Below, in pieces: positions 20,136 through 41,711 of a stretch of 41,711 nt of DNA; positions within the stretch are counted from its first letter, which is position 1; the number at the start of each line of letters is the position of its first letter. The DNA is from Bdellovibrio sp. Its GTDB lineage: Bacteria; Bdellovibrionota; Bdellovibrionia; Bdellovibrionales; Bdellovibrionaceae. The notes beneath the pieces were generated by a model. That model was not told the DNA's origin. It did not search any database and saw nothing but the letters and a program-made list of their open reading frames with translations. The DNA lies in contig JACMQO010000142.1 in the NCBI GenBank assembly GCA_014376935.1, positions 1 to 41,711 on the forward strand, in the 5' to 3' direction. A program made the translations under genes and the position numbers.

Positions 20136-21752
20136 TTAATTGCGAGTCGTAATTTTAAATCGGCCTAGGTCAGACCAATCCGAAAACTGAGATTCATTTT
20201 CAGAACGTACGCGCCAAAAGTATTCGCCGCGATCCAATTTATTCTTGATCAAAAACTTACGATCCGTCGTCGCGAAGGCCGAACTGATTTGTTTGAAGTC
20301 TGGGGTTTTAGATAGTTCGAGTCGGTATTTTTTACGATCATCAGCCGATGGAGAATTCCACTTTAACCAAATATACTGCGCAAAATCCTTTTGAAAATAA
20401 TACGACATATTTTTTAAAGAATGTTCTAAGACGGGTTGAGCCATATTAAAAACTTTGCGGTAATCAATTTCACCCGGAGAACTTGTCGAACTAATTTTAC
20501 GGCCTGTTTTATCGTAAGCTGAAACGCGGTAATGAACGTTACCCGGTTTGGCAACGGGGATGACACTGCTTGGGGTTCTAGAAACTAATGTCATTGGTTT
20601 TGAAAATCGTGGATCGCGGTCAACTTCGACAACATACTTGTCTGCACTGTCAACCGTCGTCCAGCCGACGTTGAAGTTTTTGCGTTGGCCAGGGTCTTTT
20701 GAACTTTTAGCTTTGTACTGAGCGGTAATTAATTTATTTTTTAGCTGAATCGATGGGTAGGTTAAAGCAATTTGTAGTGCCTGACTTGGATTACTTTCTA
20801 CGCCGGACATAGAAACAGCTTTCACTTTAAAATAGTAGTCACCACCTTTTGGCGGTTGAAAGTCATAGTGCGTATCAATCACTTTAGTTGCTTGTGCATC
20901 TAAGAATTGCTCGTTATCGGCTGTTTCTAAAGTGTAGAAGTCAGCTTTAGGTACGGATTGCCATTCTAAATGTTGTCTAACGCCGTCTTTGAAAAGCATT
21001 TTTTTACTTTGCGTAACGAACCTTGGATTATCTAAGACTATTTTCTCTTCAACAACTGGAGCGGGTGCCGGTTGCATATCTGGCACCACGGTCACTTCAG
21101 AAGGTAAAACGGGTTCGATCGGTTTCGCTAATTGAACTAGTTTTGTAATTTGAATTTTATTTTCTTCTTGAGTCTCAACTAATATATTTTTTGCTTCCAC
21201 ACGCTTTGGAGTCGCTTTTTGAACTGGCTTTTTGTTCATTAAGACTGTGCCTTTAGAAACTTTTAAATCAAAATTTCCACAGTCCTTATTTTTAGTTAAT
21301 TGAAAAGAAGCATCTTTCGCGTCAACGGTATATTGCTTGCCGCAATCTGTAATTATAAAGGTTTTGTCAACGCCAGTGGCGGCGACTTGACCGAACGCTA
21401 AGTCGATTGAAATATTCTTATTAATCGTTGTGAATCGAATTAAAGAGTTTTGTGAAATTTGTAATACTTTGCCGTCATTTAATTTGATTTCGGCCGAAGA
21501 TTGCGCGCCGGTGTAGATTGTATCATTCTTTGAAACATAAGTATTTTCGTAGGCTTTCTCCCAAAAATACTCTTGTTTGGATTTTCTTCGGATGTCGGAA
21601 GTTACTTTTATGACTTGCCCGATACTGTCTTTTTCTTCACCTTGCCCGCTAGTAATCAGCTCAGGATGAGATATTAAATATGAGACGCCGCCTATGCAAA
21701 TTAAGCATATAACGATTAACCGTCGATCTAGTTTACTCATTGAATTAAACAT
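20136..21752 (-). CDS. FecR-domain envelope protein with fibronectin-like repeats
   Basis: A 538-residue protein anchored by one N-terminal hydrophobic segment (RLIVICLICIGGVSYLI). Next is a FecR-like domain (about residues 45-190, with YTGAQSSAEIKLNDGKVL), then a proline-rich linker, then at least three fibronectin-III-like units with repeated signatures (LETADNEQFLDA, VEVDRDPRFS, LELSKTPDFK; YYFKVKAVS, VHYRVSAYD, YFWRVRSE). FecR domains sense or bind in the periplasm; the repeats suggest protein or glycan contacts. It is divergent from the SpoIIE-type gene, with 152 bases between. The longer frame to 21890 adds 46 unlikely residues, so I used the ATG at 21752; 21740 is also possible. No clear ribosome-binding site precedes either ATG. 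Confidence 0.82.
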   Translation of the reverse strand: MFNSMSKLDRRLIVICLICIGGVSYLISHPELITSGQGEEKDSIGQVIKVTSDIRRKSKQEYFWEKAYENTYVSKNDTIYTGAQSSAEIKLNDGKVLQISQNSLIRFTTINKNISIDLAFGQVAATGVDKTFIITDCGKQYTVDAKDASFQLTKNKDCGNFDLKVSKGTVLMNKKPVQKATPKRVEAKNILVETQEENKIQITKLVQLAKPIEPVLPSEVTVVPDMQPAPAPVVEEKIVLDNPRFVTQSKKMLFKDGVRQHLEWQSVPKADFYTLETADNEQFLDAQATKVIDTHYDFQPPKGGDYYFKVKAVSMSGVESNPSQALQIALTYPSIQLKNKLITAQYKAKSSKDPGQRKNFNVGWTTVDSADKYVVEVDRDPRFSKPMTLVSRTPSSVIPVAKPGNVHYRVSAYDKTGRKISSTSSPGEIDYRKVFNMAQPVLEHSLKNMSYYFQKDFAQYIWLKWNSPSADDRKKYRLELSKTPDFKQISSAFATTDRKFLIKNKLDRGEYFWRVRSENESQFSDWSDLGRFKITTRN

Positions 21753-21904
21753 ACTTTTATTATTATCGGAACGTTTCGAAGAAAAATAAATACCCTTTGT
21801 AAAAGCTAGACAGGGTCGCGCGACATTAGTCTGTAGATACAGACCTTTAGGCCTAGAATGTGTTAGCCGTTGACTAGCGTATAAACTCAAAAGAAATTAG
21901 ATAG

Positions 21905-23701
21905 ATGAGGCTATTTTTCAGTTTGCGTCGTAAAATATTATTAATGCTGTTTGCGGTTGGTTTCGCAACAGGTGTGGTCTTTCTATTTACTTCGATCAGT
22001 ACGTTTAAAAAAGATAAGTTAGCTTATATTTTTGAGACAAATAATTCGATCATTAATAATATCTCTGAGCAATTTAAAAAAGAGTTAAAGCTTTCAACGT
22101 CGGCGACAAAAAATTTAGTTAGCAAGCTAAAGACCGATGGTTCTTTTGGAAATCCCGCCGAAACATTTATTAATGCGGATAGCCCTGTTGATAAGCTTGA
22201 AGTCTATAAGTTAACTCCAAATCGTGAATTACAATTATTTACAGGTTTATCTAAAGTTGAAATTGATAAAGCTAATTATAGCTTAGACCCAATTAAAGGT
22301 AAAGTTGTCGCGCAAATCACGAAAAAAGAAAAGGGTCTATTCATTCGAGGAAATATCGTCGTCATCGCCGAGCTTTCAAAAATTGAAGGCGAGAATTTTG
22401 TTTTGGTTTATTATTTTAACTCAGATGCATTACAAACTTTTTTCAACGAAGAAAAATCGTTTTCAAGTTTAATGATAACATCTGACGGGCAGATCGTTAA
22501 AGCTGACGAAACATTGACTCCAGATTATATCGAAAACAACTTCATGAGTTTCTTCCAAGAGTCAAAATTACTTAATTCGGCAACATCAAAAATTCAGTCA
22601 AACGATAAAAAAGATTGGTTATTAACATCGATTACCGCTGGATTTGAAAATTATTATTTTGTTTCATTAGTTGATGAAGCAAAAGCCATGAGTGCGCTAA
22701 ATAGCTTAGTTACAAATTCGATTTTAATTTTCATTTTGATGTTATTCGTCATCATTATTATCGGTGTAGTCATGTCGACCTACTTAACCTCGCGACTTTC
22801 TTTGCTTTCGGCAGCAACTAAAAAAGTCATTGAAGGTGATTTGAAAACGGTGGTTGAACCACGCGGTAATGATGAAATTACCGAGTTAACAACCAACTTC
22901 AACCACATGACCTCTGAAATTGTTCGTCTTATGAGTGAAACGGCTCATAAGGCGCGAATGGAATCAGAATTAAAAACGGCAAAAGTGGTTCAAGAAACGC
23001 TTTTTCCAAAGGCAGAGACCAATTTTAAAGATCTTCATATTAAGGGACACTATATTTCAGCCAGCGAGTGCGGTGGTGATTGGTGGCATTACAGTGAAGA
23101 TAAAGATAAAATCTACTTGTGGATTGCCGATGCAACGGGACACGGTGCTTCGGCCGCCTTACTAACCAGTGCCGCCAAATCAGCGGTTTCTTTAATTGAA
23201 ACAATGAATGTGCCACCGGCACAGTCGATGGCCTTATTAAACAAGGCGATTTGTAGCGTATCTAAAGAGAATATGATGATGACTTGTTTCTTGGCGGCCT
23301 TTAATAAGTCGACCAAAAAATTAACGTACGTGAATGCGTCTCATGAAGCGCCCATTTTATTAAAATTTGTAGATCAGCTTAAGAAAAAAGATTTGATCCA
23401 TTTAAATGAAAATTCAAGTAACCGTTTAGGACAGTCACCAGATTCGACTTACAGTGAATCTGAAATTCAATTGGTGCCTGGGGACCGAATGTTATTTTAT
23501 ACGGATGGAATTCCGGACATCCAAAATATTTCGGGCGAACCATTGCAAGAGCGTGGATTCATTAAACAGCTTTTATCTTCGGTGAATGCGCACTTAATGT
23601 TTCCTGAGTTTGTAGATCATTTTACAAATTCGTTAGTAGATTACAGACAAAATACAGAATTAGTTGACGACGTGACCTATTGCTTTACGGAGGTCAACTA
23701 G
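21905..23701 (+). CDS. Membrane sensor with HAMP and SpoIIE-type PP2C phosphatase domain
   Basis: A 598-residue membrane phosphatase. Two transmembrane helices (about residues 12-30 and 270-295) flank a periplasmic sensor region of roughly 240 residues without a recognised fold. A HAMP domain and a coiled linker follow (TTNFNHMTSEIVRLM), then the SpoIIE/RsbU phosphatase domain: ECGGDWWHY, IADATGHGASAALL, and FYTDGIPD with metal-binding Asp residues. Such phosphatases dephosphorylate STAS anti-anti-sigma proteins and so release partner switching. The next two genes encode an RsbW-like ATPase and a STAS protein, which makes this the input unit of one module. The ATG at 21905 lacks a good ribosome-binding site. 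Confidence 0.93.
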   Translation: MRLFFSLRRKILLMLFAVGFATGVVFLFTSISTFKKDKLAYIFETNNSIINNISEQFKKELKLSTSATKNLVSKLKTDGSFGNPAETFINADSPVDKLEVYKLTPNRELQLFTGLSKVEIDKANYSLDPIKGKVVAQITKKEKGLFIRGNIVVIAELSKIEGENFVLVYYFNSDALQTFFNEEKSFSSLMITSDGQIVKADETLTPDYIENNFMSFFQESKLLNSATSKIQSNDKKDWLLTSITAGFENYYFVSLVDEAKAMSALNSLVTNSILIFILMLFVIIIIGVVMSTYLTSRLSLLSAATKKVIEGDLKTVVEPRGNDEITELTTNFNHMTSEIVRLMSETAHKARMESELKTAKVVQETLFPKAETNFKDLHIKGHYISASECGGDWWHYSEDKDKIYLWIADATGHGASAALLTSAAKSAVSLIETMNVPPAQSMALLNKAICSVSKENMMMTCFLAAFNKSTKKLTYVNASHEAPILLKFVDQLKKKDLIHLNENSSNRLGQSPDSTYSESEIQLVPGDRMLFYTDGIPDIQNISGEPLQERGFIKQLLSSVNAHLMFPEFVDHFTNSLVDYRQNTELVDDVTYCFTEVN

Positions 23702-23703
23702 CA

Positions 23704-24504
23704 ATGGATTTTAAGCTGGATCTGGCAGGCCGTCAAAGTTTGATCAAAAATTTGAATCTGGACGATAAGAAATTAAATGTTTCTTTATCACATAAAACAT
23801 TTGTTAAATCGCCCAGTAAAACAAATATTCTTTTTGAAGATCAAATTTCCGAAAGCCAAATTATTCAGTTAGTCATGTATCGCGATCTTCGTCATATAAT
23901 TCAGAATTCGCTACAGAGTGCAGACGAAAAGATTGAGTTTTTAAATACGCTCATTAAAGATAATAAAGACTACTTTGCGTTAGATTTTAACATGCTTGAA
24001 GAAGGTTCCGCCGGAGAAATTTTTGAGTTTAGCGCGCTGACAGACCGTGAGGAATTGATCGCAAAAATATGTGATTTTTGTATGTTAGATCCAAGTAGTT
24101 CGCGTGCAACCAGAGCCGTAGAAACAATGGAAGAGTTAATCATGAATGCTCAGATTAATGCTCCGTTGTTACGACAAGGTTCGATTTCAGCCAGATCTTT
24201 TTTGAAGGTTGAATATTCGGATTCGTTAATGGCTATTTCGGCCATCGACTACTACGGTTCGTTAGATTGGAAAAAGTTTTTAAAGAAAATTGAAAACGGC
24301 TTAGCATTGGGTTTAGACAAGGCACTAAATTTTGGAAGAGGGGGGGCTGGCATAGGATCAACAATTATTTTTAGAAATTGCGATTCAATATTTTTAGGAG
24401 TTATCCCGCAGAAGAAAACGCGTGTATCTGTCATCATGCCCTATAAAGCTGCTGATAAAAAATACGAAAACATACAAAAATCAATCCACATCATAGAAAG
24501 TTGA
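23704..24504 (+). CDS. RsbW-like GHKL ATPase (anti-sigma or switch kinase), divergent
   Basis: A 266-residue protein with a C-terminal GHKL ATPase domain like RsbW/SpoIIAB. The N box is EELIMNAQINAP (Asn148), a D-x-x-G element is at 182-185 (DYYG, where DxG is usual), and the G2 box is GRGGAGIGS (211-219). The N-terminal 110 residues contain no recognised domain. In known systems this class phosphorylates a STAS partner and binds a sigma factor or other target. Sequence divergence is high, so kinase activity is inferred. I chose the ATG at 23704, after CGGAGGT; the longer frame has a TTG start only. It lies two bases after the phosphatase gene. Confidence 0.8.
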   Translation: MDFKLDLAGRQSLIKNLNLDDKKLNVSLSHKTFVKSPSKTNILFEDQISESQIIQLVMYRDLRHIIQNSLQSADEKIEFLNTLIKDNKDYFALDFNMLEEGSAGEIFEFSALTDREELIAKICDFCMLDPSSSRATRAVETMEELIMNAQINAPLLRQGSISARSFLKVEYSDSLMAISAIDYYGSLDWKKFLKKIENGLALGLDKALNFGRGGAGIGSTIIFRNCDSIFLGVIPQKKTRVSVIMPYKAADKKYENIQKSIHIIES

Positions 24505-24514
24505 GAAACAAAAT

Positions 24515-24973
24515 ATGTCACGTTGTGAAGTTAAAAAAGTAGGAAGCGAATATCTTTTCGAAGGTACAATCGACGAATCATTTGCGACAATCGTTAATGA
24601 AATTAAACCCGAACCGGTATTGAAATTCAATTTTAAGAATTTGAAATCAATCAATTCAACGGGGATTCGAGAGTGGATTAAATTAATGCAGAAGTTAGTT
24701 TCATCATCGATCGAACTTTACGAATGTCCGAAGCCGTTCATCGATCAAGCCAATATGGTTCAAGGCTTTATACCTTCAAATGCACGGGTTATGTCTTTTT
24801 ATGTTCCTTATTATAATGAAGACAATGAAACTGAAAAAAAAGTATTGTTAGTTTATGGTCAGCATTACACTGAAGGTAAGTTAAATCCATTGCCACCGGT
24901 CACTGATGATTCAGGTGCGCCTATGGAACTAGACGTTATTGAAGCGAAGTATTTTAAGTTTATCAAAGGATAA
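24515..24973 (+). CDS. STAS-domain protein with extended C-terminus
   Basis: A 152-residue protein. Residues 1 to about 80 look like a STAS (anti-anti-sigma) domain, with FNFKNLKSINSTGIREW; Ser48 aligns with the serine phosphorylated in SpoIIAA/RsbV (their DSSG/DSTG, NSTG here). After it comes a tail of about 60 residues starting FYVPYYNEDNE and ending AKYFKFIKG. This tail has the pattern of a C-terminal zinc-ribbon module I associate with related STAS proteins, but the positions that would be CxxC are Asn/Asp/Ser here, and no cysteine remains. It is the expected substrate of the upstream phosphatase and ATPase. Confidence 0.8.
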   Translation: MSRCEVKKVGSEYLFEGTIDESFATIVNEIKPEPVLKFNFKNLKSINSTGIREWIKLMQKLVSSSIELYECPKPFIDQANMVQGFIPSNARVMSFYVPYYNEDNETEKKVLLVYGQHYTEGKLNPLPPVTDDSGAPMELDVIEAKYFKFIKG

Positions 24974-24977
24974 TGAA

Positions 24978-26477
24978 TTGAGCGATAGCACGTCGGAAGC
25001 TCCAGAAACATATTTAACCCCGCGTAAAGATTTATACGAAATCTTTAGCCAGCAATCTCTGTCGGTTAAAAAGAAAAAGAAGATCATCGAAGCCTTAGAT
25101 GAAATCGACGGCTTTGATTTGGTTTTCATTATTGGTCTTATTTTAGAAACCAAGTTAACAGGTTGTTTAAATATCATCAGTGAAGAAAACGAAATCAGCG
25201 GTATCAATTTTTTCGAAGGCTCTATCACGCACATCGATTTACCGGACAAAGAGACTTATTTTGGTAATCTTCTTTTGCAAGAGGGGTTAGTCAAAAAAGT
25301 AGATTTAGATCGCGCCGTTAAGCAAAAAGATATGCAAATGGGGCAATTTTTAATTTCACAAAATATTCTAACGGCACAGCAGATTTCGTCTGTCGTCATG
25401 TTGCAGATGCGTTTACGTTTAAGTAAGTTGATCAGTAGCAAAAAGTTTCAATTGAATTTCGTTGAGGTCGGTACTGCGGGATCAATGATTAAAATATCAT
25501 TGATCGACTATTTCGACCTTTGCCATGACTGGATCACAGGTCGTTTTGAACAAGATTGGTTCAATTATCATTTTCTTCCATGGGAGAAAAAGATCATAAA
25601 ATTCAACGATACATTAGATTTTGCAGATCAAATTTTTACAAAACCTTTGTTCGCCAATTTGCCTGGATTAAAAGACGCATTAAAAAATAAAACTTCGATT
25701 TACGAATTAAAGCGTAAATACGCAGATAATAAACTTATGCTTTTAAAGGCAATTCATTATTTGTCGATTACGGCTCTGCTCAGCTTTTCAGAAGAGCAAA
25801 TGATCACGACGAACGAATCGAATAAGCTTGAAATGCTTTACATGAATTTGAAGTCGAAAAATGATGAAGAATTAGTAAAAGCATTTTCTTTAATCACAAA
25901 GATTAAAGAAGGTAATACGGAATCAATTTACGTCGAATTTTTGCGTATTTTAGAAATTGATTTAAATGAAAAAGAATTAGTTTATAAAAATGAGTTAACA
26001 AAGATCGCGTTACAGTTTTTAGCTAAGTCCAGCCAGCAAGCTAAAAAAGGAACGACGAAGGGTGTTAAGAAAAACGATTCTGAAATTCAGAATATTATTA
26101 AAACCGTTCAGATGGATCTTTTTAATAATAATTACTATGAAGCCTTTGTTGTTTTAAAAAAGTTATATGAAGGAAATGAGTTTGGCCAAAAAGTAAAATT
26201 ATTTTTAATTTGGGCAAAAATTGGTCAAGCACTAAAATCAAAAGTGAAAGTAAATGTAAAAGCCCTAGAGGACGAGTTAGTTTCTGTTTTGCCAGAAGAT
26301 AAAGAAACGGCCGAATACTTTTACGTTTGCGCACTGTTTGGAAAATTAAAAAATGATAAACGGATCATGCAGCACAACTATGAAAAAGCTGTAAAGAAAA
26401 ATAAGATGTACCAGGTTTACCCGGTCGAAGAAGATACGGCACTTTCGAAGATCAAAAAATTCTTAGGAGTGACTTAA
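24978..26477 (+). CDS. PATAN/DUF4388-type protein with MshEN-like segment
   Basis: A 499-residue cytosolic protein. Residues about 35-160 resemble the PATAN (DUF4388) domain (TGCLNIISEENEISGINFFEGSITHID is its typical glycine-bearing beta pattern, cited here in part: EGSITHID). It then has YFGNLLLQEGLVKKVDLDRA and GQFLISQNILTAQQ, which resemble the N-terminal module of type II secretion and pilus ATPases (MshEN). The rest is largely helical with many Lys and Glu. PATAN proteins in cyanobacteria and delta-proteobacteria link receivers to motility and secretion. The start is probably the TTG at 24978, after AAGGA, five bases past the STAS stop. Confidence 0.75.
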   Translation: MSDSTSEAPETYLTPRKDLYEIFSQQSLSVKKKKKIIEALDEIDGFDLVFIIGLILETKLTGCLNIISEENEISGINFFEGSITHIDLPDKETYFGNLLLQEGLVKKVDLDRAVKQKDMQMGQFLISQNILTAQQISSVVMLQMRLRLSKLISSKKFQLNFVEVGTAGSMIKISLIDYFDLCHDWITGRFEQDWFNYHFLPWEKKIIKFNDTLDFADQIFTKPLFANLPGLKDALKNKTSIYELKRKYADNKLMLLKAIHYLSITALLSFSEEQMITTNESNKLEMLYMNLKSKNDEELVKAFSLITKIKEGNTESIYVEFLRILEIDLNEKELVYKNELTKIALQFLAKSSQQAKKGTTKGVKKNDSEIQNIIKTVQMDLFNNNYYEAFVVLKKLYEGNEFGQKVKLFLIWAKIGQALKSKVKVNVKALEDELVSVLPEDKETAEYFYVCALFGKLKNDKRIMQHNYEKAVKKNKMYQVYPVEEDTALSKIKKFLGVT

Positions 26478-26478
26478 G

Positions 26479-27963
26479 ATGAATAAAATTGTCCTTCTAG
26501 CAATTCTTTGTGTTAGTTTTTTTGCGCAGGCGCAGGTTGAGAAGCGAATTCCGTTTGTTTTCTTAAATCAGTATTTTTCTTACGACTTGCTCAGCGCGGA
26601 TCGAATTGTTATTTCGGACAAAGTTATTAATTTTAGCGATTTTGTAATTGATCCTTCAAAAAAAGCGGTCACGATCGATTTGTTAAAGCTTTCAAAATGG
26701 CAATTTTCTGCCTACACGATGGTTTTAAAGAGGGCGGATCAAACGTTATTAGGGAAACTAGAGCTTCGGGTGGCTCAAGCTTCATCAACGCCATCGAAAA
26801 AATATGGAATTCCTGCTGGTACTGGGGCTGTTTGTATCGTTTCGGCTAATAATTTTTCTCGTATTGAAATTTGTAAAACGCTGGCGGGTTCCGACAAGCA
26901 AGTTAAAGAAGTGCGCATTGATGGGCAAGTGGTTGAAAATAAAAGTATCGTCGTTTTAAAAGACAATTTAAAATCCATTCTTTTTGAAGCTAATCTTTCA
27001 TCTGAAAATTCTGTAAAGTTAGTCACTAAAAAAAGAATGTTCTATCCAAGATCAATTACCAAAGAAGCGGCACAACCTGTTTTGCAAGTTCGGTTTATCG
27101 AAAACGGGTATCCTTTAAATCAAGGTTGGAATGATCAGGTTGATGTGAATCAATCAGCTATTTCTGTTCCTAAAGATTCTATTTTAAAATTAGAACAAGA
27201 TTTATATTTCACAAATTCGGCGATTCAAAGTTTAGCAGTTGATTATGCAGCGCCAGAAGCTCCGGTTAAGCAAGTGGCTAAACCAAAACCGGTGAAGAAA
27301 CCTGATGTTTATATCGATCCAAGATACCAATACATTATTGAACCATTTACGGTCTTTGCTGGTCTCAAAGGGTCGGGTAGCACAATTGAGGCGAACTTAG
27401 CTTCTGATTTAGGAAAAGGATTAAGATTTTCATACCGCAGAAAACTTGAGCAAGGGAATGAGCTACAAGCTTACTTCAGTGCTTACCAGATGAATATCTC
27501 AAGTGACGTTAACCAAACGGCGATCAATAACGCCGCACAAATGCTAATGGGCGCCGGAGTTGGTTGGAAGCACATGTTAACACGGTCGATCGGAATCATT
27601 CCGCAAATTGAGCTTCAGCAAGATGTGTTTTTTAAAAACTTAATTGGATCAGCCCAAATTGATATCGTTAATGGTTTAAATAAGCAGGCGTCTGCGAATC
27701 CCTTCTGGATTTTCTATTCGGACAAGTTATCGCTTGCCACTTTAGATGCGGGTTTAACATATATTTTGCCAACCAGTGCGGGCGGCCAAATTGTGAAGTC
27801 GGGCTATAAATATAAAGTAGGGGCAACGTACCAGTACAGATTTCCTGAAGGTGCTTTGATTTTTAATATTCAGTCAGGCCAGCGTAAACAAAATTTCGAA
27901 GATATTTCATACAGCGAAAATTTTCTTATCATGGGTGCCGGATATAGTTTTTATTTTAAATAG
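26479..27963 (+). CDS. Secreted protein, probable outer-membrane beta-barrel
   Basis: A 494-residue exported protein that I do not recognise. Residues 1 to 19 are a signal peptide (VSFFAQA-QVE). The N-terminal half is beta-rich and soluble-looking, then a Pro/Lys/Val linker near residue 260-275. The C-terminal 210 residues read as alternating amphipathic strands (RFSYRRKLEQGN, YQYRFPEGALIFNIQSGQ) and the protein ends in an aromatic strand, SFYFK, as outer-membrane barrels often do. It follows the PATAN-like gene by one base with a TAGGAG site. It could be the envelope output or tether of the upstream partner-switching genes; that is inference. Confidence 0.75.
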   Translation: MNKIVLLAILCVSFFAQAQVEKRIPFVFLNQYFSYDLLSADRIVISDKVINFSDFVIDPSKKAVTIDLLKLSKWQFSAYTMVLKRADQTLLGKLELRVAQASSTPSKKYGIPAGTGAVCIVSANNFSRIEICKTLAGSDKQVKEVRIDGQVVENKSIVVLKDNLKSILFEANLSSENSVKLVTKKRMFYPRSITKEAAQPVLQVRFIENGYPLNQGWNDQVDVNQSAISVPKDSILKLEQDLYFTNSAIQSLAVDYAAPEAPVKQVAKPKPVKKPDVYIDPRYQYIIEPFTVFAGLKGSGSTIEANLASDLGKGLRFSYRRKLEQGNELQAYFSAYQMNISSDVNQTAINNAAQMLMGAGVGWKHMLTRSIGIIPQIELQQDVFFKNLIGSAQIDIVNGLNKQASANPFWIFYSDKLSLATLDAGLTYILPTSAGGQIVKSGYKYKVGATYQYRFPEGALIFNIQSGQRKQNFEDISYSENFLIMGAGYSFYFK

Positions 27964-28055: not shown

Positions 28056-28328
28056 ATGAAAAAGCTATTACTATATTCATTCGTTTTACTTTTAAGTTCC
28101 TGTTCTAATCCTTTCGGTAAAGACTCGTTAATCTCGGGCATTTCGAATGGAATCGGGTCATTATTTGGCGGTAAAACCAGTACCGAGCTTGTTTCGGGTG
28201 GAGCCCAACAATTTCAAACGGCAGCCCATTACAGCGTTTCAGTATCGGTTGGTAGTTACATTAATCAGTCGTCTGTTGATACAAACGGTGGTTACAAAGT
28301 CATTACGACAATCAAGAACGAAAACTAG
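28056..28328 (+). CDS. Small lipoprotein
   Basis: A 90-residue protein with a lipoprotein signal peptide and lipobox (LLLSSCSN, Cys16). The mature part is about 74 residues rich in Gly and Ser (DSLISGISNGIGSLFGG and HYSVSVSVGSYINQSS). No family recognised. There is no good ribosome-binding site, which agrees with the leaderless promoter proposed above. The region behind it, up to fusA, is full of decayed sequence, so this gene may be a survivor of a larger locus or cut short at its end. Confidence 0.72.
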   Translation: MKKLLLYSFVLLLSSCSNPFGKDSLISGISNGIGSLFGGKTSTELVSGGAQQFQTAAHYSVSVSVGSYINQSSVDTNGGYKVITTIKNEN

Positions 28329-36513: not shown

Positions 36514-37134
36514 ATGAAGTTTAAAATTAAGCTGATTCTGGGTCTGGTTCTATTTGCGGCTTTTGCGGCTTATATTTATCGAACTTCGGTTTTTAGAATT
36601 TCAAAAAATTTTGAAGTGGTCGAAGATGGTAAACTTTATCGTTCGGCGCAATTAACGACTGAAGAACTTCAAGAAACGGTTCGTAAATACAATATCAAAA
36701 CGGTTATGAGCTTACGCGGATCGCCGGGACGCACGGATTATTACGAGCCCGAAGCCGATACGGTGGCGGGCCTGAAAATTAAGTTTGTTCCGATTCCGAT
36801 GAGCGACCGTTATTATCCGCTTGAGTCTGAAGTGAAAGAAGTTTTTTCTGTTTTTGAAGATCCTTCAAATTACCCGGTGCTGATTCATTGCCGTGTGGGC
36901 ACCGACCGTACGGGAATGGTTGCGGCCTTATACGAGCGAGTTTACATGAACAAGTCTGTCGACGAGGCTTTGAAACAGTTAACATTTGATAACTGGCATG
37001 TGCGTTATCTTCGACCGGCGATGTCTTCTTTCGTTCGAAAATTTAAAGATCTGAAATGGGTGCTGAATGATTATAAGCTTTGTTCACCTGAATTTTCAGA
37101 ATACCGAGAGCCTGGCTATGACTGCAAAAAATAA
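36514..37134 (+). CDS. Membrane-anchored Cys-based (tyrosine/dual-specificity) phosphatase
   Basis: A 206-residue phosphatase with an N-terminal membrane segment (residues 5-21). The catalytic loop is HCRVGTDRT, with Cys126 and Arg132, and the likely general acid is Asp98 in MSDRYYP. The sequence style (GKLYRSAQLT at 39-48) resembles the Siw14/atypical DSP group, which in yeast acts on inositol pyrophosphates. The substrate here is unknown; phosphotyrosine, or other phosphates, are possible. It overlaps ppk by 17 bases and is transcribed with it, so a link to polyphosphate or phosphate control is a reasonable guess. The active site may lie inside or outside, depending on membrane orientation. 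Confidence 0.86.
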   Translation: MKFKIKLILGLVLFAAFAAYIYRTSVFRISKNFEVVEDGKLYRSAQLTTEELQETVRKYNIKTVMSLRGSPGRTDYYEPEADTVAGLKIKFVPIPMSDRYYPLESEVKEVFSVFEDPSNYPVLIHCRVGTDRTGMVAALYERVYMNKSVDEALKQLTFDNWHVRYLRPAMSSFVRKFKDLKWVLNDYKLCSPEFSEYREPGYDCKK

Positions 37135-39361
37135 AACAGCGACCAAAAAAATTACGAAAAGAAAACCAGTTAAAGCTAGCCGAAAAAAAACGAAAAGTAA
37201 TATCATTGAACATCCGCGTTCATCGGCTTTGATTTTTAATAACCGTGAATTGGGTTGGTTAAACTTTAATTTACGTGTTCTAGCCGAAGCGGAAGACTCT
37301 AAAAATCCGTTGCTTGAGCGCGTGCGCTTTCTTTCGATTTCAAGTACGAACTTAGATGAATTTTTTATGAAGCGTGTGGGTGGATTAAAGCGCCAGGTGG
37401 CTTACGGAGTTTCAGCTAAATCATCTGATGGACAAACTCCTGAAATGCAGTTAGAAATGATCCGCAAGCGCCTGCAACCAATGTTAAAGAAACAGTTAGA
37501 TTTAGCTGAACATCTAGTTAAGGAAATTGGCGCGCACGGTTGCAAGTTAGTCAGTTATCCAAGTTTAACGGCCAGTGAAAAAAAATGGATCAAAAGTTAT
37601 TTTTTAAGAAATATTTTTCCAGTTCTTACACCGCTATCGGTTGATCCGGGGCATCCATTTCCTTTTATTTCAAATTTATCAACATCTTTAGGTGTTGCAA
37701 TTGCAACGCCGCAAAGCCCGGACGATCTTTTATTTGCCCGCATCAAAATTCCGCGCGTTTTAAATCAATGGGTGCAAATAGAAAGCGCCACAGGTTACAA
37801 AGGTTCTGAAAAGTGGATTCATTTAATTGATATTATTAAGGAGCACTTAAACGAGCTGTTTCCCGAAATGATCGTCCAAGGTCATATTCTATTTCGCGTA
37901 TCGCGTAATGCTGATTCAGACCGCGAAGAAGAAGACGTTGAAGATTTATTATCGATGATCGAGGAAGAGCTTCGTCAACGTCGCTTTGCTGAAATTGTGC
38001 GTATGGAAATCGGTCAATGTACATTACCTTGGCTTAAAGAATATTTAATGAGCCAGCTTGAGCTAAAAGATGACGATATTTTTCCGTTATCAGCGCAGTA
38101 CGATTTAGCTGATTTATCATCTTTAGTTTCGCAATTAAATTGGCCGTCAAATAAATACTTACCTTGGAATCCTGTCATGCCGATCGGATTAAGTGATCCA
38201 CACTTTACGATTTTTGGTGCGATTAAAAAACAAGATATTTTACTGCATCATCCGTACGAAAGTTTTTCAGATAGCGTTGAAAAATTCATTCGGGATGCTT
38301 CTGAAGACCCAGATGTTCTAGCGATCAAAATGACATTGTACCGAACAGGTGATAATAGCCCATTTATTAAAGCCTTAATCTATGCGGCCGAAGTTGGTAA
38401 GCAAGTTGTTTGTCTTATTGAGCTTAAAGCACGCTTTGATGAAGAGCGAAATATCTACTGGGCACAAGAGCTTGAAAATGCTGGCGTGCATGTCGTTTAT
38501 GGTGTCGTTGGTTTTAAAACACATTCGAAAACGGCATTAGTTGTTCGTAAAGAATCAGATCAAGTGCGTTGTTACGCGCATATCGGAACAGGTAACTACA
38601 ACGTTTCAACATCACGCTACTACACCGATCTTGGCTTATTAACTTGTGACGAACGTATTACATCAGAGCTGGTCGAGTTTTTTAATTACTTAACGGGTAA
38701 ATCTTTAAAGCAAGATTACCAACATTTAGTTCTAGCTCCGGTCAATATGTTCAGAAAAATGAAAGATCTAATTGATCGCGAAAAAGATCATGCGTTTAAT
38801 AAACGCCCAAGCTTAATCATGGCAAAATTTAACAACATGGAAGAAAATGATATTTCCTTAGCGTTGTATGAAGCTAGCCAAGCTACGGTTCCAATTCATA
38901 TTATCGTGCGCGGATTTTGCTGCATTAAAGTGAACGTCAAAGGCGTTAGCGAAACGATTCAAGTGCAATCGACGATTGGCCGCTTCTTAGAACATTCACG
39001 AATTTTCTATTTTAGAAATGGCAAAATAGATCCTATTGATGGTGATTTCTACATTGGGTCAGCTGATTGGATGTATCGTAATTTACATGCACGCGTCGAA
39101 GCTTTGTGCCCGATCTATGATCGTGATTTAAAAGCTAAACTGTGGAACATTTTGCAGCTTTACTGGAATGACACAAAACAAACTTGGGTCATGAAATCAG
39201 ATGCTAGTTATGAAAAGAAAACGAAAGCCGACGTTAAAGCCTCTGGCCTATTGCCGGTGCAAGAAGAACTTATGCATCAATCTAAATTAGCCGTGCAGGC
39301 TCATGAAGAAAAATTAAAAGCGACCCTAGAAGCTGAACTTATCGAACAGCAGAAAAGATAG
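37118..39361 (+). CDS. ppk: Polyphosphate kinase 1
   Basis: A 747-residue PPK1, which makes polyphosphate reversibly from ATP. The two catalytic histidines are His469 (FKTHSK) and His488 (YAHIGTGNYN), with the same 19-residue spacing as E. coli His435 and His454. The PPK N-terminal domain begins FNNRELGWLNFNLRVL. About 40 residues at the N-terminus are basic and low-complexity (MTAKNKTATKKITKRKP), absent from E. coli PPK1. I chose the ATG at 37118 (GAGAG before it); an ATG at 37067 would overlap the phosphatase far more. Its last 23 bases overlap the convergent ppx/gppA gene, which encodes the opposing enzyme. Confidence 0.97.
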   Translation: MTAKNKTATKKITKRKPVKASRKKTKSNIIEHPRSSALIFNNRELGWLNFNLRVLAEAEDSKNPLLERVRFLSISSTNLDEFFMKRVGGLKRQVAYGVSAKSSDGQTPEMQLEMIRKRLQPMLKKQLDLAEHLVKEIGAHGCKLVSYPSLTASEKKWIKSYFLRNIFPVLTPLSVDPGHPFPFISNLSTSLGVAIATPQSPDDLLFARIKIPRVLNQWVQIESATGYKGSEKWIHLIDIIKEHLNELFPEMIVQGHILFRVSRNADSDREEEDVEDLLSMIEEELRQRRFAEIVRMEIGQCTLPWLKEYLMSQLELKDDDIFPLSAQYDLADLSSLVSQLNWPSNKYLPWNPVMPIGLSDPHFTIFGAIKKQDILLHHPYESFSDSVEKFIRDASEDPDVLAIKMTLYRTGDNSPFIKALIYAAEVGKQVVCLIELKARFDEERNIYWAQELENAGVHVVYGVVGFKTHSKTALVVRKESDQVRCYAHIGTGNYNVSTSRYYTDLGLLTCDERITSELVEFFNYLTGKSLKQDYQHLVLAPVNMFRKMKDLIDREKDHAFNKRPSLIMAKFNNMEENDISLALYEASQATVPIHIIVRGFCCIKVNVKGVSETIQVQSTIGRFLEHSRIFYFRNGKIDPIDGDFYIGSADWMYRNLHARVEALCPIYDRDLKAKLWNILQLYWNDTKQTWVMKSDASYEKKTKADVKASGLLPVQEELMHQSKLAVQAHEEKLKATLEAELIEQQKR

Positions 39362-40226
39362 CGCCTTCTTTAAGCCCTACTCCGGGGATTTTGATGCGCT
39401 TGATTTTATATTTCTTCATTAGAAATAAAGTTAAAAATAATGCGGGCTCGATCACGTCAACGCGATCGGGTTTTAAATCTAATTTTTTAATTCTATCAGC
39501 CGGTTTTGTTTTTAAAAACTTTTTATAAATTAGTTTCAGCTCGGCCAGCGTAATTAAAGTGTTGGGCCCTTTTTTTAATAGCGTCAGTTTTAATTTTCCG
39601 ATTGCGTCTAAATTGCCACCGGTTCCGATCGCTAAATCAAAGGCGCGCTTGGGTAGGGATGCATTCGCTTTTTTTAATTTGTCTTTTAAAATCAGAGTTG
39701 GATTTCGGCTTTGCTGTAAAGCTTCAGTTAAAGTGCGGACCATGCCCCATTTAAAACTTTTGCTAAAAAATATTTTACTGTGCTGCATGTGGGTCAGCTC
39801 GACGCTGCCGCCACCGATATCGATGAGTAAGCAGTGCTCGTTACCTACGCAAATGCTATTTTGAACGGCCATACGAATCAAGTCGGCTTCTTTTTGACCC
39901 GAGATCACTTCTATCTTAAGCCCCGAGGTTTGTTTTATTTGTGTTAGGATCGCTTTCTTATTTTGAGCATCACGAAAAGCACTGGTAGCTAGAACTATGC
40001 TTTTATCAACTTTGAATTTTTTATTCAGCCGAGCCATTCTTTTAAAAGCTAAAACCAACCTTTTCTGCGTTGGCTCCATGATATTATTGTATATAAAAAC
40101 ATCATCGCCTAATCGAATGGGTTCGCGGTGCTTTTTTAAAACAGTCCATGCACCGAAGGCGTCGATTTCGACGATCAGCTGGCGGATGGCGTTTGAACCT
40201 ATATCGATCGATGAAATTCGTGTCAT
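39339..40226 (-). CDS. Ppx/GppA-type exopolyphosphatase
   Basis: A 295-residue Ppx/GppA phosphatase of the ASKHA fold, which removes phosphates from polyphosphate or from pppGpp. Motifs: SSIDIGSNAIR (phosphate 1), ATSAFRDA, SGQKEADLI, IDIGGGSVEL (phosphate 2) and IGTGGNLDAI. It is short, with domains I and II only, as in many Ppx proteins that lack the E. coli C-terminal domains. I chose the ATG at 40226; the TTG at 40244 adds six residues. It is convergent with ppk, overlapping by 23 bases, and divergent from phoU. Polyphosphate versus pppGpp as substrate cannot be decided. Confidence 0.9.
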   Translation of the reverse strand: MTRISSIDIGSNAIRQLIVEIDAFGAWTVLKKHREPIRLGDDVFIYNNIMEPTQKRLVLAFKRMARLNKKFKVDKSIVLATSAFRDAQNKKAILTQIKQTSGLKIEVISGQKEADLIRMAVQNSICVGNEHCLLIDIGGGSVELTHMQHSKIFFSKSFKWGMVRTLTEALQQSRNPTLILKDKLKKANASLPKRAFDLAIGTGGNLDAIGKLKLTLLKKGPNTLITLAELKLIYKKFLKTKPADRIKKLDLKPDRVDVIEPALFLTLFLMKKYKIKRIKIPGVGLKEGAIFSAVR

Positions 40227-40329
40227 TGACTCACTTTTCTGCAAGCTTCTTAGGACCTACTTCATCTTTTTGCGTTGAAAGAAGACAGGGGTCAAGAAAG
40301 AAGCTAACCTAGTCCAGAAAGTAGGACAA

Positions 40330-40992
40330 ATGGAACGAACTATAGACGCACAACTAGAAGATTTAAAAAACTTAACGGTCGAGATGGGTGGGCAAGTTGA
40401 AAAAGCTTTGCAAACAACCGTACTTGGAATTTCACGTCGCGATCCGCAACAGTTTTCAAACGTACATAAAATTGAAGAGCTTGTTAATGATCTACAAATT
40501 AAAATCGATAACGCATGCCTTGAAGTTTTAGCTAAACAGGGGCCCGTGGCGAAAGATTTACGATTGATTTTGTCGATTATCAAAATCAATACCGATCTTG
40601 AACGCATGGGTGACCAGTGTGTAAACATCGCCCATATTGGTCGCGAGGTCTTAGAAAGAACGAACAATATTTCGTTTCAAGATATCGAACAAATGGCGAC
40701 GACCGTAAAAAAAATGGTGAAGGCTGCTTTAGATAGTTTTGTGAAAATGAACGTGACGATGGCTCGCGAAGTTTTATTGATGGACGATGAAGTAGATTCT
40801 TTAAGAAATAAAATCTTTTCAGAATCTACGGCGCGCATGAAAATTGAACCTGCACAAATTGAAAACCTATTAGATTTAATTTTAATCGCCCGAAATTTAG
40901 AACGTTTGGGTGACCATTCAACCAATATTGCCGAAGACGTGATTTTCGCGTTAACAGGCAAAGACATCAGGCACCAGGGTGCAGGAGCATAA
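40330..40992 (+). CDS. phoU: Phosphate signalling protein PhoU
   Basis: A 220-residue PhoU with two three-helix PhoU repeats. The paired metal-site signatures are DLERMGDQCVNIA and NLERLGDHSTNIAED. PhoU inhibits the PhoR kinase when phosphate is plentiful and controls the Pst transporter. No pstSCAB genes are in the window, but the response regulator gene starts three bases after it, so the two are one operon. Its start is divergent from ppx/gppA; I saw no clear pho box in the 100 bases between. Confidence 0.95.
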   Translation: MERTIDAQLEDLKNLTVEMGGQVEKALQTTVLGISRRDPQQFSNVHKIEELVNDLQIKIDNACLEVLAKQGPVAKDLRLILSIIKINTDLERMGDQCVNIAHIGREVLERTNNISFQDIEQMATTVKKMVKAALDSFVKMNVTMAREVLLMDDEVDSLRNKIFSESTARMKIEPAQIENLLDLILIARNLERLGDHSTNIAEDVIFALTGKDIRHQGAGA

Positions 40993-40995
40993 ACG

Positions 40996-41711
40996 ATGAA
41001 CGCAACAACAACTTTAGTCGGCCAATCTGTGAATACCAATTCATTTTCAGGACATGCTTTAGTTGTTGAAGACGATCATTCGATTGCAAACCTATTAAAA
41101 ATTCATTTAACTGATTTGGGCTTAAAAGTTGATTTAGCATTTGATGCTGAATCGGCCTTTAGCTTGATGCAAACGTCGAAGTACTCGGTCTGTTTATTAG
41201 ACTGGATGCTTCCGGGCATTCAAGGCATTGATCTTTTAAAAAAAATGCGGGCTCAAAATAATCAGATCAAAGTTTTAATGTTAACCGCAAAAGCCGATCC
41301 GGATTCAATCGTGCTGGCCTTAGAAACGGGCGCGGATGATTATTTATCAAAACCTTTCGATTCAAAGGTTTTACTAGCTCGCGTACGTAACCTTTTACGT
41401 CGTACAGAACTGCAAAATCAAATTCAAGAACAAAGAAAAGCATCAGCACAATCTGAAGACGAGATGACTTTGGATGGGCTAAATATTCACTTTTTAAAAT
41501 ATATCATTCGGTATAAAGGTGACGACGTTCATTTAACTCCGTCGGAATTTAAATTATTGGCCTCATTATTTAAAGCCGATGGTTTGGTCATGACGCGTGA
41601 TCAACTGATTGCGCAGATTCAAGGTGACGAAGTGAACGTGACGGGGCGTACGATCGATACCCACGTTTTTGCCCTTCGAAAAAAATTGGGCGCGTGGTCT
41701 TCGCATATTGA
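40996..41711 (+). CDS. phoB: PhoB-like response regulator, cut by the window end
   Basis: The first 238 codons of an OmpR/PhoB-type response regulator; the reading frame runs off the window. The receiver begins near residue 16 (LVVEDDHS), with phosphoacceptor Asp at LLDWMLPG and Lys in SKPFDS. A linker with a Gln/Glu-rich stretch follows, then the winged-helix DNA-binding domain (LTPSEFKLLASLF, GRTIDTHVFALRKKLG). An unusual 15-residue start (MNATTTLVGQSVNTN) precedes the receiver. The ribosome-binding site is GGAG. By context with phoU it is likely the phosphate regulator, but the exact paralog is not proven; the symbol is tentative. Confidence 0.85.
   Translation, partial: MNATTTLVGQSVNTNSFSGHALVVEDDHSIANLLKIHLTDLGLKVDLAFDAESAFSLMQTSKYSVCLLDWMLPGIQGIDLLKKMRAQNNQIKVLMLTAKADPDSIVLALETGADDYLSKPFDSKVLLARVRNLLRRTELQNQIQEQRKASAQSEDEMTLDGLNIHFLKYIIRYKGDDVHLTPSEFKLLASLFKADGLVMTRDQLIAQIQGDEVNVTGRTIDTHVFALRKKLGAWSSHI

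Follow-up and report, generated by a model that had tools for sequence, protein, structure and literature searches.

A conserved and apparently undescribed variant of partner switching in Bdellovibrionota with a likely non-transcriptional output

The gene cluster and its predicted proteins

Partner switches are familiar chiefly as regulators of sigma factors. We analyzed a putative partner-switching cluster in Bdellovibrio sp., located on a stretch of 41,711 nucleotides (the window) that corresponds to contig JACMQO010000142.1 (C79) of a 3.27 Mb genome. An earlier sequence-only reading of this DNA had described tandem genes for a phosphatase, a GHKL ATPase, a STAS protein, a PATAN protein and a barrel-like protein, faced by a FecR-like envelope protein. 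Gene calls based on a listing of open reading frames and on Pfam searches of the window proteins place the frames where that reading had put them, and Pfam and structure models agree with its description. The order is a FecR protein gene on one strand and, diverging from it, genes for a SpoIIE phosphatase, a SpoIIAB/RsbW-type kinase, a STAS protein, a DUF4388 (PATAN) protein and a barrel protein. With the start codons corrected to ATG at 23704 for the kinase and TTG at 24978 for the DUF4388 gene, the tight spacing of the tandem genes stands, and the gaps, first given as 2-10 bases, amount to 1-10 bases.

The first tandem gene (21905-23701, + strand) encodes a membrane sensor-HAMP-SpoIIE phosphatase of the PPM/PP2C type, similar to SiaA and RsbU (Pfam SpoIIE, 5.9e-33; HAMP, 1.8e-8). 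Across 57 sequences, the catalytic positions in its motifs GGDWW, DATGHG, TDG and DD show 98-100% conservation, and the metal-binding Asp motifs of PPM/SpoIIE phosphatases are kept in the family.

The second gene (23704-24504, + strand) encodes a predicted serine kinase. Pfam returns nothing significant for this protein, nor for the STAS and barrel proteins of the window. A kinase model built from six orthologs (predicted local distance difference test, pLDDT, 85; predicted template modeling score, pTM, 0.86) contains a Bergerat fold at residues ~100-250, and structure comparison (Foldseek, VIA) matches this C-terminal domain to SpoIIAB (Z 12.9), SiaB (11.4), LvrC (11.2) and RsbW (11.2), whereas other GHKL ATPases, such as histidine kinases and pyruvate dehydrogenase kinases, reach Z 7.6 or lower. 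Across 49 sequences there is little or no variation at the Glu and Asn of the N-box, the Asp of the G1 box or the glycines of the G2 box, and E144, N148, D182 and G214/G218 are 100% conserved. Together, model and residues identify the protein as a predicted kinase of the SpoIIAB/RsbW/SiaB type with a complete nucleotide site. The N-terminal ~90 residues are modeled as an alpha/beta domain which, judging from the order of its elements and from the best Foldseek match of the model, Leptospira LvrC (9qih), resembles a degenerate receiver.

The third gene (24515-24973, + strand) encodes a predicted phosphoacceptor protein of the STAS type, extended at its C-terminus by a conserved segment. A profile made from 22 sequences retrieves mostly TM1442, RsbV, SpoIIAA-like and MlaB-like STAS chains, all weakly (E 0.08-0.27); TM1442 and RsbV top the matches, the RsbV-type match being weak at E 0.19. 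In the profile alignment Ser48 (codon 24656-24658, + strand; INS48TGIREW) falls on the known phosphoserine of RsbV and TM1442, and the N47-S48-x-G core is 100% conserved in 83 sequences. The sequence-only reading had assigned a Ser to the phosphoacceptor position and had read the genes as a phosphatase, kinase and STAS set; both assignments are borne out, the set is complete, and Ser48 is the predicted phosphorylation site. The Ser is kept whether a local GHKL gene is present or absent, ruling out the idea that the phosphosite is lost upon loss of the kinase.

The fourth gene (24978-26477, + strand) encodes a DUF4388 protein, a putative effector that has lost its receiver domain in the window's genus. 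DUF4388 is the PATAN domain family, and the Pfam match (7.7e-7) is above cut-off. Of the earlier description of this protein as PATAN/MshEN-like, the PATAN part thus holds, whereas the MshEN (T2SSE N-terminal) part finds no support in Pfam, which shows no such match in the window proteins at E up to 1.

The last protein of the tandem set (26479-27963, + strand) is a predicted outer-membrane beta-barrel. Its model (pLDDT 83) displays a signal helix, a periplasmic beta-sandwich, a disordered linker and a 10-strand barrel at the C-terminus (about 27325-27957, + strand) that matches outer-membrane barrels such as OpcA, OmpT and EspP, in line with the secreted, barrel-like protein originally proposed. 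The low pTM of 0.49 fits the loose linker. All barrel relatives carry a C-terminal Phe; the window protein ends in FYFK (Phe-Lys).

Facing the tandem genes is a FecR-domain envelope protein (20136-21752, - strand; Pfam FecR, 1.8e-6, likewise above cut-off) with an N-terminal membrane anchor and a fibronectin/Ig-like region. Its gene most likely starts at 21752 and not at 21890, because the homolog at the related locus L032 begins at the matching residue. The corrected start leaves a divergent intergenic region of ~150 bp (21753-21904), presumed to be regulatory. Scans for promoters and terminators returned sites no commoner than in shuffled sequence, the promoter-like sites of the divergent region included.

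Conservation and fusions in Bdellovibrionota

Relatives were drawn from 141 genomes of the order, of which 117 carry DUF4388 relatives and 101 carry STAS relatives, and ~120 stretches around related loci were examined. Genes were labeled by us with hidden Markov models, and the histidine kinase (HK) and receiver (REC) labels can include generic relatives. The sequence-only reading had proposed a search for the same gene order in relatives; 85 distinct loci keep this order and the genes are not scattered, so the gene set of the window is not a product of chance. Immediately upstream of STAS lies GHKL at 43 of these 85 loci, SpoIIE at 26 and a SpoIIE-GHKL fusion at 2. Immediately downstream, 30 loci have HK and another 30 have DUF4388, either alone or with the barrel. 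The GHKL-STAS gap has a median of 4 bp, and the FecR gene lies opposite the SpoIIE gene in most related loci. The gene order of the module is far from chance.

Across the sampled Bdellovibrionota the commonest order is FecR on the opposite strand followed by SpoIIE, GHKL, STAS, HK, REC and REC-DUF4388, which is probably ancestral. Here HK is a CheA-like PAS-Hpt-HATPase protein of ~640 aa, REC a CheY-like protein of ~135 aa and REC-DUF4388 a protein of ~645 aa. The receiver is retained in 67 of 83 DUF4388 homologs, with Asp57 100% conserved in the REC-DUF4388 relatives; the window protein is without it. Sequence comparison thus presents the window cluster as a genus-level derivative of a larger Bdellovibrionota module from which the receiver and the histidine kinase are gone. 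The six-gene set, put forward earlier as a candidate undescribed system, is therefore conserved but is not the basic system.

Bdellovibrio proper displays another arrangement, in which SpoIIE-STAS-REC-DUF4388 is retained, the cluster has no serine kinase gene, and the HK gene follows FecR on the opposite strand. In one such genome, which we take to be that of the cultivated strain B. bacteriovorus HD100, FecR, SpoIIE, STAS, REC-DUF4388 and HK occur together, and only the local serine kinase is missing.

Several parts of the module are fused in relatives. SpoIIE is joined to GHKL at L199 (911 aa) and L211 (920 aa), and GHKL to STAS at L193, L195 and L206. A single PAS-GGDEF-GHKL fusion of 706 aa (L204:10429-12549, + strand) directly links the switch family to cyclic di-GMP (c-di-GMP). 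DUF4388 and the barrel form one open frame at L033 (985 aa), L034 (1000 aa) and L039 (848 aa), and their fusion in three genomes links the two genes. Likewise, all six intact REC-less DUF4388 proteins found within a STAS module, in six genomes, adjoin the barrel or are fused to it. The DUF4388-barrel joint contains no ATG, GTG or TTG at L033 and L034, and TTG and GTG codons at L039; a hydrophobic, signal-like stretch is retained at the joint in all three. The fused protein would therefore extend outward from the cytoplasm as one chain, provided that signal peptidase does not cleave it.

Some apparent components were rejected. Open frames of ~650 aa had suggested a STAS-DUF4388 fusion, an idea dropped once the additional N-terminal domain was recognized as a receiver. 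In one family, genes of ~368 aa that precede the kinase gene were considered as switch parts but are metabolic neighbors (HPPD, RibD), and proteins of ~460 aa first labeled HK turned out to be PAS-GGDEF proteins. One record titled Streptomyces griseus (L159, CALQIT020000074.1) carries a Bdellovibrionota cluster and is probably misnamed.

Known switches and the likely output

To our knowledge, the non-sigma outputs of partner switches are mostly diguanylate cyclases. Judged by its parts, the closest working analogue of the window cluster is SiaABCD of Pseudomonas aeruginosa (PMC7647112, PMC8457831), a precedent for a non-sigma output (PMC7647112). Both combine a HAMP-containing membrane PP2C phosphatase and a GHKL kinase (Z 11.4) in one operon with a phosphoacceptor partner; the output of SiaABCD is not a sigma factor, and some relatives of the window cluster carry a GGDEF gene. 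In contrast, SiaC is a DUF1987 protein with a phosphothreonine, whereas the partner in the window is a STAS protein with Ser48 and no DUF1987 match in Pfam; SiaD is a cyclase, whereas the output in the window would be DUF4388 with the barrel, no cyclase gene being present in the cluster; and siaABCD as described has no FecR protein (PMC7647112, PMC8457831).

The RsbU-RsbW-RsbV and SpoIIE-SpoIIAB-SpoIIAA systems share the phosphatase, the kinase fold and the position of the STAS Ser. Unlike them, the module has no sigma gene in or near any locus, its kinase has an extra N-terminal domain and its STAS protein a C-terminal extension. Leptospira LvrABC also joins histidine-kinase signaling to a receiver-Bergerat protein (LvrC, 9qih), but the LvrC receiver is canonical whereas the N-terminal domain of the window kinase looks degenerate, and only the window-type cluster has the STAS, phosphatase and PATAN proteins. 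The joint serine switch and phosphorelay of the larger module recalls LvrB-LvrC (PMC13269768) and HptB-HsbRAD (named in PMC8457831). HptB-HsbR-HsbA-HsbD and BgrSTUWV-BgrR are STAS partner switches with non-sigma outputs, one of them joined to an Hpt phosphorelay; unlike the module, their output is a diguanylate cyclase and they have no PATAN or barrel component. The PATAN-CheY regulators PixE, PixG and LsiR of cyanobacteria share the DUF4388/PATAN domain, the receiver found in most relatives and the adjacent HK and receiver genes, but the window protein is without a receiver and lies in one operon with a serine switch and an outer-membrane barrel.

We favor, as reasonably probable, a partner-switching system whose output is the PATAN (DUF4388) effector and not a sigma factor. 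By family resemblance, the kinase would phosphorylate Ser48 of the STAS protein, and the membrane phosphatase would remove the phosphate when its periplasmic sensor detects an envelope or surface signal, which the FecR protein perhaps senses as well. One form of the STAS protein would then bind and gate the downstream effector. In the ancestral form this effector may be the CheA-like kinase feeding the receiver-PATAN protein, so that serine and histidine-aspartate signaling would converge there. In the window's genus, with the receiver and the histidine kinase lost and the PATAN protein presumably coupled to the outer-membrane barrel, the principal input still available would be the serine switch. 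In cyanobacteria, type IV pili are a target of PATAN-CheY regulators, PixE having been reported to interact with the pilus motor PilB1 (PMC7690835), and by analogy with these regulators the machine controlled is probably a pilus- or gliding-type surface machine.

A broader proposal, which we hold only tentatively, is that the serine switch and the His-Asp relay converge on one PATAN protein, and that the genus lost the relay and joined PATAN to the barrel. This would create a cytoplasm-to-surface switch that may gate the predator's attack machinery; where the two proteins are fused, the switch could be one polypeptide carrying an internal signal-anchor.

Control of a machine instead of transcription, as already suggested by the sequence-only reading, is the likeliest explanation, one rival being a sigma switch acting in trans. 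In that case the kinase would serve as anti-sigma factor to one of the sigma factors with genes elsewhere, with DUF4388 and the barrel as regulated neighbors. The kinase fold is indeed closest to SpoIIAB and RsbW, LvrC, which also combines a receiver with a Bergerat fold, is a proposed anti-sigma factor whose partner sigma is still unknown (PMC13269768), and the window genome has five sigma-70 region-2 genes, all on other contigs. However, a search with these five own-genome proteins as probes, which found one another as a control, turned up no sigma factor gene, either in the window or close to STAS at any of ~120 loci, in agreement with the absence of an adjacent one noted before. Moreover, the fusions found join DUF4388 to the barrel, and the kinase to STAS, the phosphatase or GGDEF, with none to a sigma factor seen among them, and SiaB, whose fold is almost as close, has no sigma factor as its target in the published model (PMC7647112). 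We therefore regard a sigma switch in trans as unlikely.

It is quite unlikely that c-di-GMP is the main output, with STAS or the kinase gating a diguanylate cyclase as in SiaABCD and DUF4388 forming a parallel branch. A PAS-GGDEF cyclase does occur in the clusters of L036 and L168, both relatives of the window's genus, and of L145, L202 and L209, and L204 unites GGDEF and GHKL in one protein. Nevertheless, no GGDEF gene lies in or beside the window cluster, and only 4 of 42 well-flanked loci have one versus 26 with DUF4388. The switch could also be real and the barrel, perhaps with DUF4388, a mere operon passenger without shared function. Outside the genus the barrel has only remote counterparts (E 1e-9 to 1e-2), and DUF4388 occurs without the switch in genomes G051 and G052. 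What makes this very improbable is the single DUF4388-barrel frame in three genomes, with no start codon at the joint in two of them, the distantly related barrel genes lying convergent to REC-DUF4388 in many family members, and the fact that barrel linkage accompanies receiver loss.

Other points count against a switch with a PATAN output. Many loci, those of Bdellovibrio proper included, keep Ser48 without a local kinase, so the kinase must act there from elsewhere, or the switch works differently. In L037 and L038, from the window's genus, DUF4388 is present without switch genes; it lies beside pyruvate kinase (L037:8441-9703 and L038:7771-9045), STAS and kinase genes being absent. Neighborhood and fusions show association, not direction, for the STAS partner. 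The pilus retraction ATPase PilT occurs in every one of the 141 genomes, whether or not the module is present, making its presence/absence profile uninformative on a pilus link.

In a literature search that covered few subscription journals we found no paper joining Bdellovibrio with this switch. The module represents a real, conserved variant of partner switching, apparently undescribed and likely non-transcriptional in output. If that output is a motility-type effector with an envelope protein, it would be a new output class for partner switches, and the module is a testable candidate for how predatory Bdellovibrionota turn a surface signal into action.

Candidate trans kinases and neighboring genes

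Two groups of genes could supply a kinase for STAS in trans. A protein combining a cyclic-nucleotide-binding domain, a degenerate receiver and a GHKL domain is encoded in HD100 and in the window's genome (L212:2937-4364, - strand; L213:2514-4187, + strand). Similar matches from the same kinase family occur in most genomes of the order, and this protein is a possible trans kinase. Orphan kinase copies away from any STAS gene are likewise candidates (L131:3631-4479, L128:5758-6564 and L129:1686-2492, all + strand); the genome of the window has one, and two relatives without a cluster kinase carry one between hpt and thyA. Lone STAS paralogs with the Asn-Ser core and the C-terminal extension are found elsewhere in Bdellovibrionota (L214:5195-5686, L216:4260-4736 and L217:5691-6173), one of them in HD100.

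Downstream of the barrel gene, a small putative lipoprotein (28056-28328, + strand) may end the operon; it was found at the same place and strand in L032 (E 2e-32) but not at the further loci of the genus that were checked. The right end of the window (37067-41709) holds a group of genes that, as read from their translations, encode a polyphosphate kinase and Ppx/GppA-like, PhoU-like and PhoB-like proteins.

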